Source: Chloroflexota bacterium
Lineage (GTDB): Bacteria; Chloroflexota; Anaerolineae; Anaerolineales; Anaerolineaceae
DNA: 39,558 nt
Reading direction: 5' to 3'
Assembly: GCA_012522475.1 (NCBI GenBank)
Contig: JAAYKH010000001.1
Location: 1-39,558, forward strand
The position numbers and the translations under genes are program-made. Of the stretch, positions 11,474 to 15,855 are shown piece by piece (the first letter of the stretch is position 1; every line of letters begins with the position of its first letter). The notes beneath the pieces were generated by a model, which did no database searches, was not told the origin of the DNA, and was given only the letters and a program-made list of their open reading frames with translations.

Positions 11474-12928
11474 TTAAAACGGCCCATAATTAAACATCAC
11501 CGCCAGTGCCAGGAAGATCACCGTCACCGGCAGGATGACAGCCCACAGACGCAGCACCCATTTAAGCCATTTATGATAGGGAATCGCGGTCAGACTGAGG
11601 GCGATCAGCAGCACCGCGTTGGTCGGGTAGACCAGGTTCGAAAAGCCATCTCCAAAAGCGAAGGCGCTCACCGCAATTTGCCGACTCACGCCCACCAGAT
11701 CGGCCAGAGGGGCAATCAACGGGATGATTAGCAAAGCTTTTGCGGAGCCCGAGCTGACAAAAAGCTCCAGCACCAGGGTCACCGCGTAAATCACCAGGGC
11801 CGAAACCAGGGGGCTTGTGGCTGAAAACCGTTGAGAGGCCGCATACAGCATCGTATCCAGGATGCCGCCGGAGGAGATGATTAATTTGATGCTGGCCGCC
11901 ATCATCAGCAGTGGAATGGCAGGCGCAATCCCCAGAAAGCCATCCCAAGCGGCTTTCCAGGCATCCTTGCCAATTCCGGCAATCAAGCCTGCCCCCACGC
12001 CACCCACCAGGAACAAAAGTCCTGAAAGGGGCATCGCCAGGTCATTTAACCCCTCGACCCAGGAAAACACCATCACAACCACTAAAATCAACCCAAAGCA
12101 TGTCGCCATAAAAATGGCAGCCCGTTTTTGACGCGGATCAACCTCTTCTGCCGATACTCGCTGCTCTACGTCAAGCCGCGGTTTTTCCTGGCGATCCTCT
12201 ATGTAAACGGGTGACCGGCTGGGGTCTTCAGCCACCTTTTTTGCATGCCGGGTGAGAAACAACGCCAGCAGCGCATACACAGCCAAAAACAGCACCAGAC
12301 GTGGTGCCCAGCCCGAAAATAGGGGCAATCCGGCCAGCTGTTGTGCGATCCCGATTGTGAAGAAGTTGAATACGGCGGTTGAGAAGCCCACATTGGCCGC
12401 CAGAACCGACATGCCCAGCCCGGTGAGCGAATCCCAGCCCAGGGAATAGGCCAGGGCTATCATAATCGGCACCAGGGGAACCACCTCTTCCAGAATGCCA
12501 AAAAACCCGCCCAGTGCCATGAAGAAAAACGTCAGCACCAGCAAAAGGGTGTATTTTTTCTCGCCAAAGCGCTGCACAATTGTCGCCAGTGCAAAATTGA
12601 GGATACCACTGCGTTCCAGCACCGCAAAAGCCACGCCCACCAGCAGAATAAAGATGATGATGCCAGCAATAGTGAAGCCGTCGGGTGAGAAGAACACCTC
12701 GACCGGGGCGGTGAACCAGCGCCACACCGGCAGCTTGGGCTGGTCGGTAAAACTAAAGGCATTCGGATCAATCACCTCGCCGCGGCCGGGTTCCTCGATG
12801 CGTATAAATTGCCCGGAAGGAATCACCCGGGTCAGGATGCCGGAGAGGATCATTAACGCAAAAATAATCAGCAGCGCCTGTAAAAAAGCCTTGGTGCTGA
12901 TTTGTGCACCAGATTTTGATTCTGCCAT
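11474..12928 (-). CDS. YfcC-family (C4-dicarboxylate/basic amino acid) membrane transporter
   Basis: This is a 484-residue protein with about a dozen membrane segments. The N-terminus contains LSGILTRVIPSGQF, followed by a soluble loop and the family signature LVGVAFAVLERSGIL. FFGILEEVVPLVPIMIALAYSLGWD and the later FVSSGSAKALLIIPL and FGDGFSNLVYPTNAVLL are typical of YfcC/DcuC-like ion-transporter proteins. Family members move dicarboxylates or arginine/ornithine-type amino acids; the substrate here cannot be fixed. AGGAGG lies 8 nt before the ATG and a TATAAT-like box lies near 12977. No partner enzyme is adjacent; the repeat-rich REP locus begins about 100 nt upstream. Confidence 0.88.
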   Translation of the reverse strand: MAESKSGAQISTKAFLQALLIIFALMILSGILTRVIPSGQFIRIEEPGRGEVIDPNAFSFTDQPKLPVWRWFTAPVEVFFSPDGFTIAGIIIFILLVGVAFAVLERSGILNFALATIVQRFGEKKYTLLLVLTFFFMALGGFFGILEEVVPLVPIMIALAYSLGWDSLTGLGMSVLAANVGFSTAVFNFFTIGIAQQLAGLPLFSGWAPRLVLFLAVYALLALFLTRHAKKVAEDPSRSPVYIEDRQEKPRLDVEQRVSAEEVDPRQKRAAIFMATCFGLILVVVMVFSWVEGLNDLAMPLSGLLFLVGGVGAGLIAGIGKDAWKAAWDGFLGIAPAIPLLMMAASIKLIISSGGILDTMLYAASQRFSATSPLVSALVIYAVTLVLELFVSSGSAKALLIIPLIAPLADLVGVSRQIAVSAFAFGDGFSNLVYPTNAVLLIALSLTAIPYHKWLKWVLRLWAVILPVTVIFLALAVMFNYGPF

Positions 12929-13029
12929 GGGGTATTCCTCCTGTTTACAATAAATAACGTGAGGTATTACCTGAATTATAACGATAAATTGGTTTTAGAA
13001 AAAAACTGGTTTTGTAGGCATCCAACCTC

Positions 13030-13180
13030 GTAGTGGGTTGACAGGATGTACCATATGACCCAATTAAAAAAAGAGTCCTTACAATCCAACGATCCGTCAA
13101 CCCACCCTTTGTTCAACATTCATCCTTATGGTGGGTTGGCACATTGTTAATAAAACAAAACCAATTTAAATAGACAAATT
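13030..13180 (+). repeat. REP/BIME element copy 1 (right hairpin lost)
   Basis: It begins GTAGTGGGTTGAC, contains the complementary arm CCGTCAACCCACC (13094-13106), and has the left arm of the second hairpin (GGTGGGTTGG, 13130-13139). It ends after the conserved AT-rich core ACCAATTTAAATAG. The terminal CAACCCACCCTAC is missing here and is replaced by a diverged C-rich stretch (13181-13220). It differs from copy 2 at several bases. Confidence 0.8.
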
Positions 13181-13220
13181 CCGCTGGTTTCCCCGCCGAC
13201 CCCACGGCCACGATCTATCA

Positions 13221-13402
13221 GTAGGGTGGGTTGACGGGACGTACCACATGACCAAATTAAAAAAAGAGCCCTTACAATCTAACTATCCGTCAACCCACCC
13301 TTTGCTCAACATTCATCCTTGTGGTGGGTTGGTACATTGTTAATAAAACAAAACCAATTTAAATAGATAAACCCCACCACATCCCCTACCAACCCACCCT
13401 AC
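13221..13402 (+). repeat. REP/BIME element copy 2 (complete)
   Basis: This 182-bp unit has perfect 13-bp inverted ends, GTAGGGTGGGTTG (13221-13233) and CAACCCACCCTAC (13390-13402). Inside are two stems. GGTGGGTTGACGG (13224-13236) pairs with CCGTCAACCCACC (13287-13299), and GGTGGGTTGG (13323-13332) pairs with CCAACCCACC (13389-13398). Each half therefore presents GTAG 5' of its own hairpin, facing inward, which is the layout of a bacterial interspersed mosaic element made of two inverted REPs. Confidence 0.88.
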
Positions 13403-13524
13403 AACGATCCGTCAACCCACCATTTGCTCAACATTCATCCTTATGGTGGGTTGGTACATTGTTAATAAAACAAAACCAATTTAAATAGATAAACCCCACT
13501 ACTTTCCTTACCAACCCACCCTAC
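13403..13524 (+). repeat. REP/BIME element copy 3 (left REP arm lost)
   Basis: It directly abuts copy 2. It begins inside the element at GATCCGTCAACCCACC, then matches copy 2 nearly base for base through the second hairpin to CAACCCACCCTAC (13512-13524). The left GTAG arm of the first hairpin is absent. It ends 5 bp before the stop end of the RAYT gene. Confidence 0.85.
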
Positions 13525-13529
13525 AGCAC

Positions 13530-14081
13530 TCATTCTCCATAGTCAATGCGATCGATGTCAACATCTAAGCCTTGCCCCCAATCCGAATCATAAACACCCA
13601 ATTTAACATAACGATGAAAACTCGACCAGGACCAATCGCAAACATTTTTCACCAAACCATGCCTTAGCGGATTGTAATGGATATAATGGAAATGGTTTCG
13701 ATAATCCCTCTCATCTCGAATGGTATGCTCCCAAAAACGGCGTTGCCAGATCGTCGCTTCTTTTTTGTGAATTCTGGATGGGTTTCGTTGCTCTTCTTCA
13801 CCGAAAATGCGCAGGTAATTCATAGTAAATAACCGCTTGATTTCACGTATACGCATGGAGTAGTTTGAATCATTAACAGGGAGTGTGATCATTGTATGAA
13901 TGTGGTCTGGCAATACACAAATGGCATCAGTCCTGAATGGGCGGCGTTTCGAAACAAGGCGCCAGACATCACGCAGTATTTGCCGGGCTTCATTTTTTGC
14001 AAGAATGGGTGATCGCCCATAGGTGACCAAAGTGATAAACACTGTCGCACCTTGATTGTGCATACGACGATATTCTGGCAT
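13530..14081 (-). CDS. REP-associated tyrosine transposase (RAYT, Y1/HUH family)
   Basis: This is a 183-residue Y1 transposase. The HUH pair is in LPDHIHTMI (His60, His62). The catalytic tyrosine region is YRNHFHYIHYNPLRHGLV (candidate Tyr133 or Tyr136), and the RAYT-type tail DWSWSSFHRYVKLG follows. RFWEHTIRDERD before the tyrosine is also typical of RAYTs rather than IS200/IS605 TnpA, as are the length and the absence of a TnpB partner. Known RAYTs nick single-stranded REP DNA near a GTAG tetranucleotide beside a hairpin. Here such elements flank the gene on both sides within 20 bp. No frame damage is visible, so it may be active. The ribosome site is weak. Confidence 0.92.
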   Translation of the reverse strand: MPEYRRMHNQGATVFITLVTYGRSPILAKNEARQILRDVWRLVSKRRPFRTDAICVLPDHIHTMITLPVNDSNYSMRIREIKRLFTMNYLRIFGEEEQRNPSRIHKKEATIWQRRFWEHTIRDERDYRNHFHYIHYNPLRHGLVKNVCDWSWSSFHRYVKLGVYDSDWGQGLDVDIDRIDYGE

Positions 14082-14100
14082 AAGCTCATTTTACATTAAA

Positions 14101-14260
14101 GTAGGGTTGACGGGATGTACCGCATGACCAAATTAAAAAAGAATCCTTACAATCCAACCATCCGTCAACCCACCATTTGCTCAACATTTATCCTTATGGT
14201 GGGTTGGCACATTATTAATAATACAAAACTAATTTAAATAGCTTTCCCCATCCACCCTAC
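14101..14260 (+). repeat. REP/BIME element copy 4 (far side of the transposase)
   Basis: It begins GTAGGGTTGACGGG, with 4 bp missing relative to copy 2. It carries the arms GGGTTGACGG (14104-14113) and CCGTCAACCC (14162-14171), the second-hairpin arm GGTGGGTTGG (14198-14207), and ends in CCACCCTAC (14252-14260). Same orientation as the other copies. Its last bases form the stop codon of murJ. Confidence 0.85.
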
Positions 14261-15855
14261 AAGTTTCTCTTAATTCTCCCCAACAATGCCTCCGCGATAC
14301 TCCGCAGTTCGGGCATTTTCGTAACCCACAGCAACCCCACGTAAACCAGCATTCCAACCCCCAACGCGCCAAACAGCTCCAGCAAGCGTGACCGTCCGCC
14401 AACCAGTCCGCGCCAGCCCACCAGAACCGCAGCCATCAACCCCGTCCCCACCGCACTAATGCCCACCCCCTGCCAGATATAAAGTCCTTCCAGCCCCCCC
14501 AACTTCTTACGAATGAGAATCACCAGTGCAATAGCCTCCAGCCCGGTAGCCACCGAATTGGCCAACGCCAGACCGCCGTGGGGCATCCAGCCCAGACGGG
14601 CAAACCAGGCCGAAAACCACAAACTGAGGCCAATATTCAAGCCCATCGCCGCCACCCCCACACTTACCGGGGTGCGCGTATCATGCAGGGCGTAAAAGGC
14701 CCGGCTGAGGATTTCCACCAGTGCGTGCCCGACCAGCCCGGCCGCATACCACAGCAAAGCCCACGCCACCAACTCCGTTGAACGAGCAATAAATTCACCC
14801 CGTTGATACAGCAACTGCACCAGTGGGTAACGCAGCAAAATCAAACCAACCCCCGCCGGCAGTGAAAGCAGGATGATCGCCCGCAGCGTGGAGGCCAGCG
14901 AACGACGCATCTCATCGATCTTCCCCAACGCCACCTGGGCCGAGAAGGTCGGCAGCGAGGCAATCGCCGCCGATTGCGCCACAGCCATCTGCGGCATCAA
15001 CATCAAGCTGAACGCCAGGGTGATCGCCGAAACACTGCCCTCGGGCTGTCCCAACGCGATGATCGTATTGACGATAAAGTTCATCTGCACCACAGCCACG
15101 CCCAGCAAACGCGGGCCCATCAGCTTGAATACCTCCAGCACAGCGCGGTCTTTCAAGCCCAAGAACGCATGGTAAGCCCGCCCGGGCAAATTCGCTAAAG
15201 CGGGAAGTTTAATCAGCAGGTGCAGTAAAGCGCCCAGTACCACGCCAATGGCCAGACGCTGGATGCCCCAATGCTCGGGCAGGAACAACGTCCCCGCAAT
15301 CATCCCCAGGGAGTACATTGCCGGGGCAATCGATGCAATCAGAAAATTCTGGTGCGCATTCAAGATGCCCATCACCAGGCCGCTGACCCCAAACAAGATC
15401 ACCGAGGGCAACATCATCCGGAAGAGTTGCACTGTCAAGGCTTCCTGCACCGGGTCTGATTCTGGCACCAACAAAAACAGGCCGTCGGTCACAATTTGCG
15501 GCGCAAAGATATACGCCAAAACGCTGATGACCACCAGCGCCAAAAACACCAGGTTAACCACGCCCGAGGCCAGGCGCCAGGCGCCAGCGCGATCTTCTTT
15601 GGCCAGGAACCCCGTAAATTTGGGGATGAAGGCCGAACCCAGCGCGCCCCCCGCCACCAGGTTGAACAGCATTTCAACAATACGGTTGGCTGCATTGAAG
15701 GAATCAAAAGCCACCGAGGTGCCAAACGCACGCGTGATCACCATGCCGCGCGCCAAACCAACCAAATTACAGATGATAAAAGCTGCCATGACCGTGCCTG
15801 TGGCGCGCGCGATCTGCTGGTTGGCCGTCGGGGATGTTTTCACCGTTTTATTCAT
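14257..15855 (-). CDS. murJ: Lipid II flippase MurJ (MviN family)
   Basis: This 532-residue membrane protein of about 14 helices belongs to the MOP superfamily. The N-terminal ARGMVITRAFGTSVAFDSFNAANRI and the RAFYALHDTRTPVSVG motif are family hallmarks, and the essential charged residues of the central cavity (Arg in the first helix region, the Arg in RAFYA) are present. It moves lipid II across the cytoplasmic membrane for peptidoglycan synthesis. The start overlaps mazG by 4 nt (ATGA). The stop TAG lies inside the terminal GTAGGGTGG of a REP element, so the C-terminal end (LLGRIKRNL) may have been set by that insertion. The length is still normal. Confidence 0.95.
   Translation of the reverse strand: MNKTVKTSPTANQQIARATGTVMAAFIICNLVGLARGMVITRAFGTSVAFDSFNAANRIVEMLFNLVAGGALGSAFIPKFTGFLAKEDRAGAWRLASGVVNLVFLALVVISVLAYIFAPQIVTDGLFLLVPESDPVQEALTVQLFRMMLPSVILFGVSGLVMGILNAHQNFLIASIAPAMYSLGMIAGTLFLPEHWGIQRLAIGVVLGALLHLLIKLPALANLPGRAYHAFLGLKDRAVLEVFKLMGPRLLGVAVVQMNFIVNTIIALGQPEGSVSAITLAFSLMLMPQMAVAQSAAIASLPTFSAQVALGKIDEMRRSLASTLRAIILLSLPAGVGLILLRYPLVQLLYQRGEFIARSTELVAWALLWYAAGLVGHALVEILSRAFYALHDTRTPVSVGVAAMGLNIGLSLWFSAWFARLGWMPHGGLALANSVATGLEAIALVILIRKKLGGLEGLYIWQGVGISAVGTGLMAAVLVGWRGLVGGRSRLLELFGALGVGMLVYVGLLWVTKMPELRSIAEALLGRIKRNL

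Follow-up and report, generated by a model that had tools for sequence, protein, structure and literature searches.

Long-loop GTAG hairpins, probably constrained in length rather than in sequence, around a REP-associated tyrosine transposase gene of Anaerolineaceae

The stretch of DNA analysed here (the window; 39,558 nucleotides of contig JAAYKH010000001.1, assembly GCA_012522475.1) carries a gene for a REP-associated tyrosine transposase (RAYT) among GTAG-tagged hairpins, and it probably represents a long-loop type of REP/RAYT locus, in which the loop is constrained in length and not in sequence. The hairpins consist of a stem of 10–14 bp and a loop of around 50 nt. GTAG stands at the 5' foot of the hairpin, as in REPs, and since it is found at one end of most units, the unit is polar. 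The window units are ~80 nt long with loops of 48–53 nt, larger than the 20–40 nt palindrome with a small loop by which REPs are recognized, and they are therefore classed here as a REP variant. Their nearly constant length, together with the change of the loop from site to site, hints that the machinery measures length and not the letters of the loop, and we infer that the RAYT may act as a ruler for the hairpin.

Regarding the gene itself, it is flanked by a DcuC-family transporter gene and murJ on contig C61 of the draft genome G000 (2.26 Mb, 89 contigs, 98.6% complete). Its product scores 174.6 bits against the NCBIfam model NF047646 for REP-associated tyrosine transposases (cut-off 80), 28.5 bits against Pfam Y1_Tnp, and 19.9 bits against the IS200 model, which is below the cut-off of 55. 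TnpAREP from E. coli (PDB 4er8) aligns to it over residues 1–170 (E = 2.1e-33). From this alignment and a residue check, the catalytic residues are kept, namely the HUH histidines H60/H62 and the tyrosine Y133 (which we take to be Y115 in the E. coli numbering), N137 is the counterpart of E. coli N119, and W112, Q113, E118, H119, and R122 in the GTAG-recognition region are identical to their E. coli equivalents W94, Q95, E100, H101, and R104. The latter five residues are discussed for GTAG recognition, the role of W94 being called unclear (PMC6006769, in excerpt). The motifs DHIH, WE, and YIHYNP of the window RAYT fit the table row directly above that of subclass 2.3, which by row order would be subclass 2.2, itself equated with Bertels group 2 (PMC6006769, in excerpt). 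These family scores, along with the nearest GTAG hairpins, which lie 5 bp beyond the 3' end of the gene and 19 bp before its start, bear out the first-pass annotation of the region as a REP/RAYT locus, and the probable Chloroflexota origin that it proposed agrees with the nearest named relatives, which are Anaerolineaceae and other Chloroflexi records.

Around the gene, a family of direct repeats with starts at 13033, 13226, 13348, and 14101 makes up four copies of an element spanning 13030–14261 (Table 1). The fullest copy, of 182 bp (13221–13402), has the perfect inverted ends GTAGGGTGGGTTG...CAACCCACCCTAC. The element had first been taken for a single unit with two internal stems; the repeat and its perfect inverted ends hold, but the two stems are better described as two head-to-head hairpins, A formed by arms 1 and 2 and B by arms 3 and 4. 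In the intact copy, hairpin A reads GTAG-GGTGGGTTGACGG, a 49-nt loop, and CCGTCAACCCACC, hairpin B reads on the other strand GTAG-GGTGGGTTGGTA, a 52-nt loop, and TACCAACCCACC, and a linker of 22–23 nt separates the two. The arms are damaged in copies 1 and 4, and most of the A hairpin is gone from copy 3. Because the minimum free energy folds of single elements are ambiguous, some copies pairing arm 2 with arm 3 and not arm 1 with arm 2, covariation was relied on to establish the pairing. Two Rfam snoRNA matches within window positions 12900–14400 were rejected, their scores being far under the gathering scores.

Table 1. Features of the RAYT locus, with positions in the window (CM, covariance model).
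Feature	Position	Strand	Evidence
REP hairpin A0, loop of 53 nt, 5' arm shorter by two bases (GTAGTGGGTTG)	13030..13106	+	CM 62.9 bits
REP hairpin B0, forms inverted pair with A0, GTAG lost, degenerate outer arm	13130..13209	-	CM 75.8 bits
REP hairpin A1, 14-bp stem, 49-nt loop	13221..13300	+	CM 79.2 bits at 13221-13299
REP hairpin B1, 12-bp stem, 52-nt loop; A1+B1 = intact 182-bp inverted pair	13323..13402	-	CM 87.8 bits
Leftover 3' arm of A hairpin	13403..13421	+	Sequence; inverted repeat I5
REP hairpin B2, 5 bp from RAYT 3' end	13445..13524	-	CM 89.2 bits
RAYT (REP-associated tyrosine transposase), 183 aa	13530..14081	-	NF047646, Pfam Y1_Tnp, PDB 4er8, residue check
REP hairpin A3, 5' arm shortened, 19 bp upstream of RAYT start	14101..14174	+	CM 65.3 bits at 14097-14174
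REP hairpin B3, internal deletion	14198..14261	-	CM 49.7 bits at 14198-14264
Segment missing from orthologous transporter/murJ gap of G005	13001..14251	.	47 bp instead, REP arm with CTAC remains

Units of the same design can be found in other members of the genus. A search for GTAGGGTGGGTTGG and CCAACCCACC as exact arms, 50–80 bases apart (permitted unit 74–104 nt), gives 81 rows in 8 of 16 genomes, including 30 in G004 and 20 in G006, and none with the reversed-pattern control; since a palindromic site was picked up from both strands, these rows correspond to 80 places. As the search fixed the arms, their invariance in these rows is not evidence. The inverted partners of these units offer a fairer sample: a partner scoring at least 18/24 (shuffled maximum 17) lies beside 43 of the 75 exact units with enough sequence (4 of the 79 lacked it), 26 of the 43 being perfect at 24/24 and 32 units having none, in a count where many pairs are read from both sides and tandem copies are included. 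Such partners provide the two inverted REPs that characterize a REPIN.

Pairing of the arms was followed separately in the different length classes. Of 23 units in the 80-nt class, 19 have a Watson-Crick match at inner pair 13, where permutation gives 11.1 (p < 0.0005, 0 of 2000 permutations being as high) and four pair types occur, and 19 have one at inner pair 12, where permutation gives 16.2 (p = 0.079); pair 11 is nearly invariant and pair 14 is at chance. Pair 11 alone stands out in the 91-nt class (16/41 vs. 10.2, p = 0.011), and it is matched in 9 of 10 units hand-picked from the 24 of genome G115 (p = 0.026); with ~30 positions tested and one of them strong, these two weaker p-values are unconvincing on their own. 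For the alignment of 11 hairpins, the covariation score of 0.210 vs. 0.137 was reached by none of 500 shuffles, and the paired cells are likewise above all 500, two of the five measures not exceeding the shuffles (both-side changes, 159/500; further pair types, 471/500). Pairing of the arms beyond the fixed core is thus supported, chiefly from one position, and the stem is read as ending at 13–14 or 10–11 bp, the remainder being the loop. In five orthologue pairs, 184 of 191 arm sites agree vs. 444 of 531 loop sites, which is suggestive only of purifying selection on the arms, as the members were found via intact arms, the aligner shifted one arm of L250/L251 (10 gap columns), and the misaligned L241/L254 pair was excluded from the sums. 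For L250/L251 itself, all 48 compared arm sites are identical, as are 100 of the 135 loop sites.

With regards to length, all 81 exact-arm rows of the genus measure either 78–82 nt (34) or 90–95 nt (47). When 20–50 bases were allowed between the same arms (44–74 nt), no row was found in the 16 genus genomes; across 147 family genomes, this pattern gives 53 rows in 5 genomes, all from genus g15, with 0 in the control, and 49 of them are 61 nt and 4 are 60 nt long. Within the ranges searched (44–104 nt for the genus, 44–74 nt for the family), no row falls at 83–89 or 62–77 nt. A relaxed scan of selected loci, allowing one mismatch in GTAG and in each 10-base arm and a spacing of up to ~115, gives 110 units, of which 43 are 78–82 nt, 61 are 90–95 nt, and 6 have other lengths (33 four times, 51, and 117); its loci, picked by model or pattern, are biased towards these lengths, while the whole-genome patterns are unbiased within their ranges. 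Among the loci scanned, the long class alone occurs in G006, G008, and G013 (the last, which bears the sister RAYT of the window gene, having 90–95 nt units plus one of 117), and the 80 class alone in G000 (78–81 nt), G005 (one unit), and G012. G003, G004, and G007 have both classes, so that length class is not one-to-one with lineage; the set lengths are typical of a lineage, though three genomes carry two of them.

Two mixed arrays and one further family were observed in this connection. At L195:1090-1884 (G004:C5), a tandem unit of ~238 bp has an 82-nt long-loop hairpin alternating with a 33-nt short-loop hairpin with the same arms, and at L208:1216-1584 (G007:C183), a distinct short GTAG hairpin, GTAGGGGCAGACCTCCGTGTCTGCCC, is interspersed among long-loop units. 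In genus g15, the RAYTs L071, L072, L073, and L075 are 37–40% identical to that of the window and adjoin units with the same arms (GTAGGGTGGGTTGGC), mostly of 61 nt, i.e., equal arms at another length.

The loops behave differently from the arms. Distinct loops number 64 among 104 units (23/43 and 41/61), as counted inside each length class by an ungapped 0.55 identity rule, and their mean best-shift identity is 0.383 and 0.366 vs. 0.339 and 0.340 when shuffled, a residual similarity that reflects faint common ancestry or shared composition. Tandem copies in one locus have loops in common. The 24 units of G115 lie on 20 contigs, 22 of them being exactly 61 nt long; their variable core identity is 0.353 vs. 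0.261 shuffled, which corresponds to a rough, near-saturated Jukes-Cantor distance of 1.49, and 44 of the 276 unit pairs are of unequal length. Folding of the loops is not beyond chance (mean z 0.13, n = 62, with 3 below -2).

A more specific reading can tentatively be put forward, namely that in Anaerolineaceae RAYTs recognize two arms at a set total length (~61, 81, or 91.5 nt), so that length would be the specificity determinant and not loop sequence or a bulge, the 35–69 nt in between would be free, and the free loop could serve as a neutral clock for dating REP copies. By analogy with known RAYT biochemistry, the transposase would bind the folded single strand at GTAG and the stem foot, nick beside the hairpin foot, and then move or copy the pair. 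If the productive complex needs the two arms at a set distance, length would be selected and loop sequence would not; loops that are nearly free would diverge with age, and most dispersed copies would therefore be old. The fixed length suggests that such a spacing is needed; the main alternative is that indels are unusually rare. The latter amounts to a plain REP/RAYT system with no ruler, where the loops are neutral filler descending from few ancestors and stay alike in length through the rarity of small indels, which is judged rather unlikely. While the orthologous loops, with 3 gap columns vs. 87 substitutions in the five usable pairs of six, are consistent with it, and the leftover loop similarity across loci points to common ancestry, this indel ratio would by hand estimate predict ~1–2 indels per loop pair at the distance in G115, and only 44 of 276 pairs differ in length; the empty intervals at 83–89 and 62–77 nt likewise argue against a system with no ruler.

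The number of copies in the own genome is small. The first-pass annotation looked for many intergenic copies there, an expectation that is not supported, as the covariance model built from 11 hairpins finds 9 hairpin units in G000 among the matches listed, 7 in the window and 2 elsewhere (of 16 rows, six repeat these places as read from the opposite strand, and a single weak row stands aside from those listed). Solo units occur at C35:35010 (A) and C34:41640 (B) in the own genome, and B units in the relative G005. The companion expectation, of many copies in relatives, is supported for 7 other members of the genus, in which exact arms are present, although a BLAST search of a 307-bp window stretch against 60 relatives matches G005 only. 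The low number of units in the own genome, and the presence of copies where a cognate RAYT is lacking, argue against recent mobility. In G006 (95% complete) and G012 (92% complete, 5 exact rows), the best RAYT matches, L040 and L064, lie outside the clade of the window RAYT and L017, and the units of these genomes are thus orphan REPs, unless the missing 5–8% of the drafts holds a RAYT. The possibility that the elements occur where the transposase family is absent is therefore half realized, since these genomes have no window-clade RAYT but most genus genomes lacking one have other RAYT-like matches, G004 having none.

The history of the locus can be followed in G005, where the gap between the transporter gene and murJ is 47 bp vs. 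1,251 bp in the window, with flanks 79–80% identical. This gap runs into CGCCAACCCACCCTAC, a REP arm with GTAG, at the position of the outermost arm of the window, which indicates that a REP was present there in both genomes and that this REP was the site at which the RAYT block either arrived or disappeared; the whole locus may have moved as a block or may have been deleted at the G005 site. In G007, no match to the window RAYT or repeats was found in the ~1.5 of 1.85 kb of the corresponding gap that were read, and a loop-like stretch without arms at the L002 site of this genome is either a decayed copy or chance. Orthologous units with common flanks are shared by G006/G013, G006/G008, G008/G013, and G000/G005.

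Retention at such sites is what would be expected if a host function (a 3'-end RNA hairpin, or a nucleoid or gyrase site) kept the hairpins, the link to RAYT being historical. Units persist at orthologous positions, including in genomes without a cognate RAYT, and only 14 of 104 unit midpoints fall inside ORFs of at least 120 aa vs. 1329 of 2080 random positions, 90 units lying outside. However, an intact RAYT is still among the copies in the window, and long unpaired loops make poor terminators, so that a host role is considered improbable as the main explanation.

The second RAYT of G000 (C33:17248-17796), the only one besides the window gene, is 48% identical to the latter. The GTAG REPs around it have short loops, mostly of 6–8 nt, and one of them has 7 BLAST places in the own genome. 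This gene lies inside an array of short-loop REPs of the GTAGGGTGTGCGG type (L009, G000:C33:15748-19296), a copy of which also adjoins the solo long-loop unit on C35.

Beyond the genus, P0001 is matched in 92 of the 147 family genomes. When the 600-bp flanks of 71 related RAYT genes were scanned for GTAG followed by a stem of at least 9 bp, with one mismatch tolerated, 112 units with loops of at most 30 nt were found vs. 2.7 in dinucleotide shuffles, and 95 with longer loops vs. 5.0, some of the latter being nested readings of neighbouring REPs. With counts so far over the shuffles, the association of RAYTs with hairpins is not due to chance. Under a stricter recurrence rule, 13 of the 71 loci are short-loop, 13 long-loop, 10 both, and 35 neither; the family RAYT loci with recurrent GTAG hairpins thus number 36 of 71, and the named RAYT loci with such hairpins 45 of 80, two sets that overlap (e.g., L017 = L086). 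The 80 named loci comprise 8 long and 5 mixed ones, among which L110, L115, L124, L134, and L135 each represent a palindromic stretch picked up from either strand, and long loops are not claimed to be confined to Chloroflexota. Outside Chloroflexota, recurrent GTAG hairpins with loops of 32–36 nt are seen at the RAYT loci L148 (Microcoleus sp. LEGE 07076) and L152 (a Hyphomicrobiales MAG), which are possible further long-loop REPs and better candidates than the palindromic rows.

The RAYT tree places L017 as the sister of the window RAYT (100/96), with L018 next (99/82). L086, which belongs to Anaerolineaceae bacterium BL5_bin.11 (JAENYZ010000004.1), coincides in coordinates with L017 in G013 and is 60% identical. 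Long loops do not mark one RAYT clade, as no fewer than 7 changes on starred branches would be needed; the classes for this count come from the looser 71-gene unit list, in which some long rows, e.g., L030 and L047, are doubtful.

A different view takes the units for the terminal inverted repeats (TIRs) of a TIRtron or MITE, a mobile element that is double-stranded, and their arms would then be bound as duplex and not as a folded hairpin. RAYT-like genes flanked by long TIRs have been described (PMC3733652, in excerpt), most TIRs of these TIRtrons being unrelated to REPs according to the same excerpt, while the units here bear GTAG and a covarying stem pair. The inverted ends of the 182-bp pair are perfect, and the lengths 61, 81, and 91–92 differ by ~20 and 10.5, which would be near whole helical turns; no claim is made from this phasing, given units of ~63–67 nt in other lineages (L018, L066, L082). 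Against duplex binding stand the polarity of the unit, the stem covariation outside the fixed core, which favours pairing of the arms, and the solo units at C34, C35, and in G005, and this view is quite improbable. That each new copy acquires its spacer of set length from foreign or local DNA, between the arms, is more improbable still: while loops in one genome seem unrelated at a fixed length, tandem copies have loops in common, orthologues drift gradually, a weak positional consensus exists, and the orthologous G013 gap of the G006:C53 pair is 35 bp without loop trace, nothing marking the loop as local DNA.

The long-loop REP/RAYT locus preferred here shares several traits with known systems. 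The closest is the E. coli REPtron, with its group 2/subclass 2.2 TnpAREP and its y, z1, and z2 REPs (PDB 4er8), which has in common the transposase family, the HUH and tyrosine motifs, the 5' GTAG, and paired REPs (PMC8266576 and PMC6006769, both in excerpt). There too, loop sequence is unselected (PMC8266576, in excerpt). In contrast, the E. coli REPs are 29–37 nt long with a bulged stem (same excerpts), whereas those described here are 60–95 nt with an unpaired loop of ~35–69 nt, the exact-arm units being free of bulges. Deletion of the upper stem and loop abolishes binding in E. coli (PMC8266576, in excerpt), which, by analogy, would fit a loop needed for its shape and not for its letters. 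The REPINs of P. fluorescens SBW25 likewise have invariant inverted ends and a spacer that is looser in sequence than in length, the length being constrained (PMC3116915, in excerpt). Unlike that spacer, which lies between two REPs and folds (same excerpt), the free stretch considered here is inside the individual GTAG hairpin and folds no better than chance.

The units also have to be set beside the GTAG repeats of the phylum to which T. roseum, as a member of the Chloroflexi, belongs. GTAG families 1–24, including GTAG-23 of T. roseum, share with them the GTAG tag, the head-to-head dimers, and the presence of Chloroflexi among the hosts, and their loops are of 2–3 nt in many families, 9–15 nt in one, and at most 27 nt and self-complementary in another (PMC3733652, in excerpt). 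The suggestion of the first-pass annotation that such a system may be undescribed in Chloroflexota is accordingly weak, GTAG repeats of Chloroflexi having been in print by 2013 (PMC3733652, in excerpt) and a REP survey including the genome of Anaerolinea thermolimosa (PMC12306157, in excerpt), besides the RAYT diversity already described (PMC6006769, in excerpt). The apparent novelty is the long loop of fixed length and not GTAG repeats in Chloroflexi: a literature search, which did not include bioRxiv preprints, returned no long unpaired loop of ~50 nt, free in sequence and fixed in length, within a single GTAG hairpin. Published searches define REPs by short loops, as their excerpts state, requiring a loop of 2–5 nt or a second stem (PMC6006769), allowing by default a loop of at most 11 nt (PMC12306157), or discarding repeats of unusual loop length (PMC3733652), and a long-loop kind would thus be missed. 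The choice and spread of REPs by RAYTs are poorly understood, and a hairpin with a loop that can change in sequence but scarcely in length provides a direct test of what is measured by the enzyme; long-loop units could moreover record the genealogy of REP copies in their loops, which short REPs cannot. Besides these units, another repeated palindrome, around CCCCTTCCCTTCAGGGTGGGGGCTAGGGGTAGGTT, is present at L249:1840-1885 (G006:C53) and, as short matches, at many places in G006, G013, and G008.
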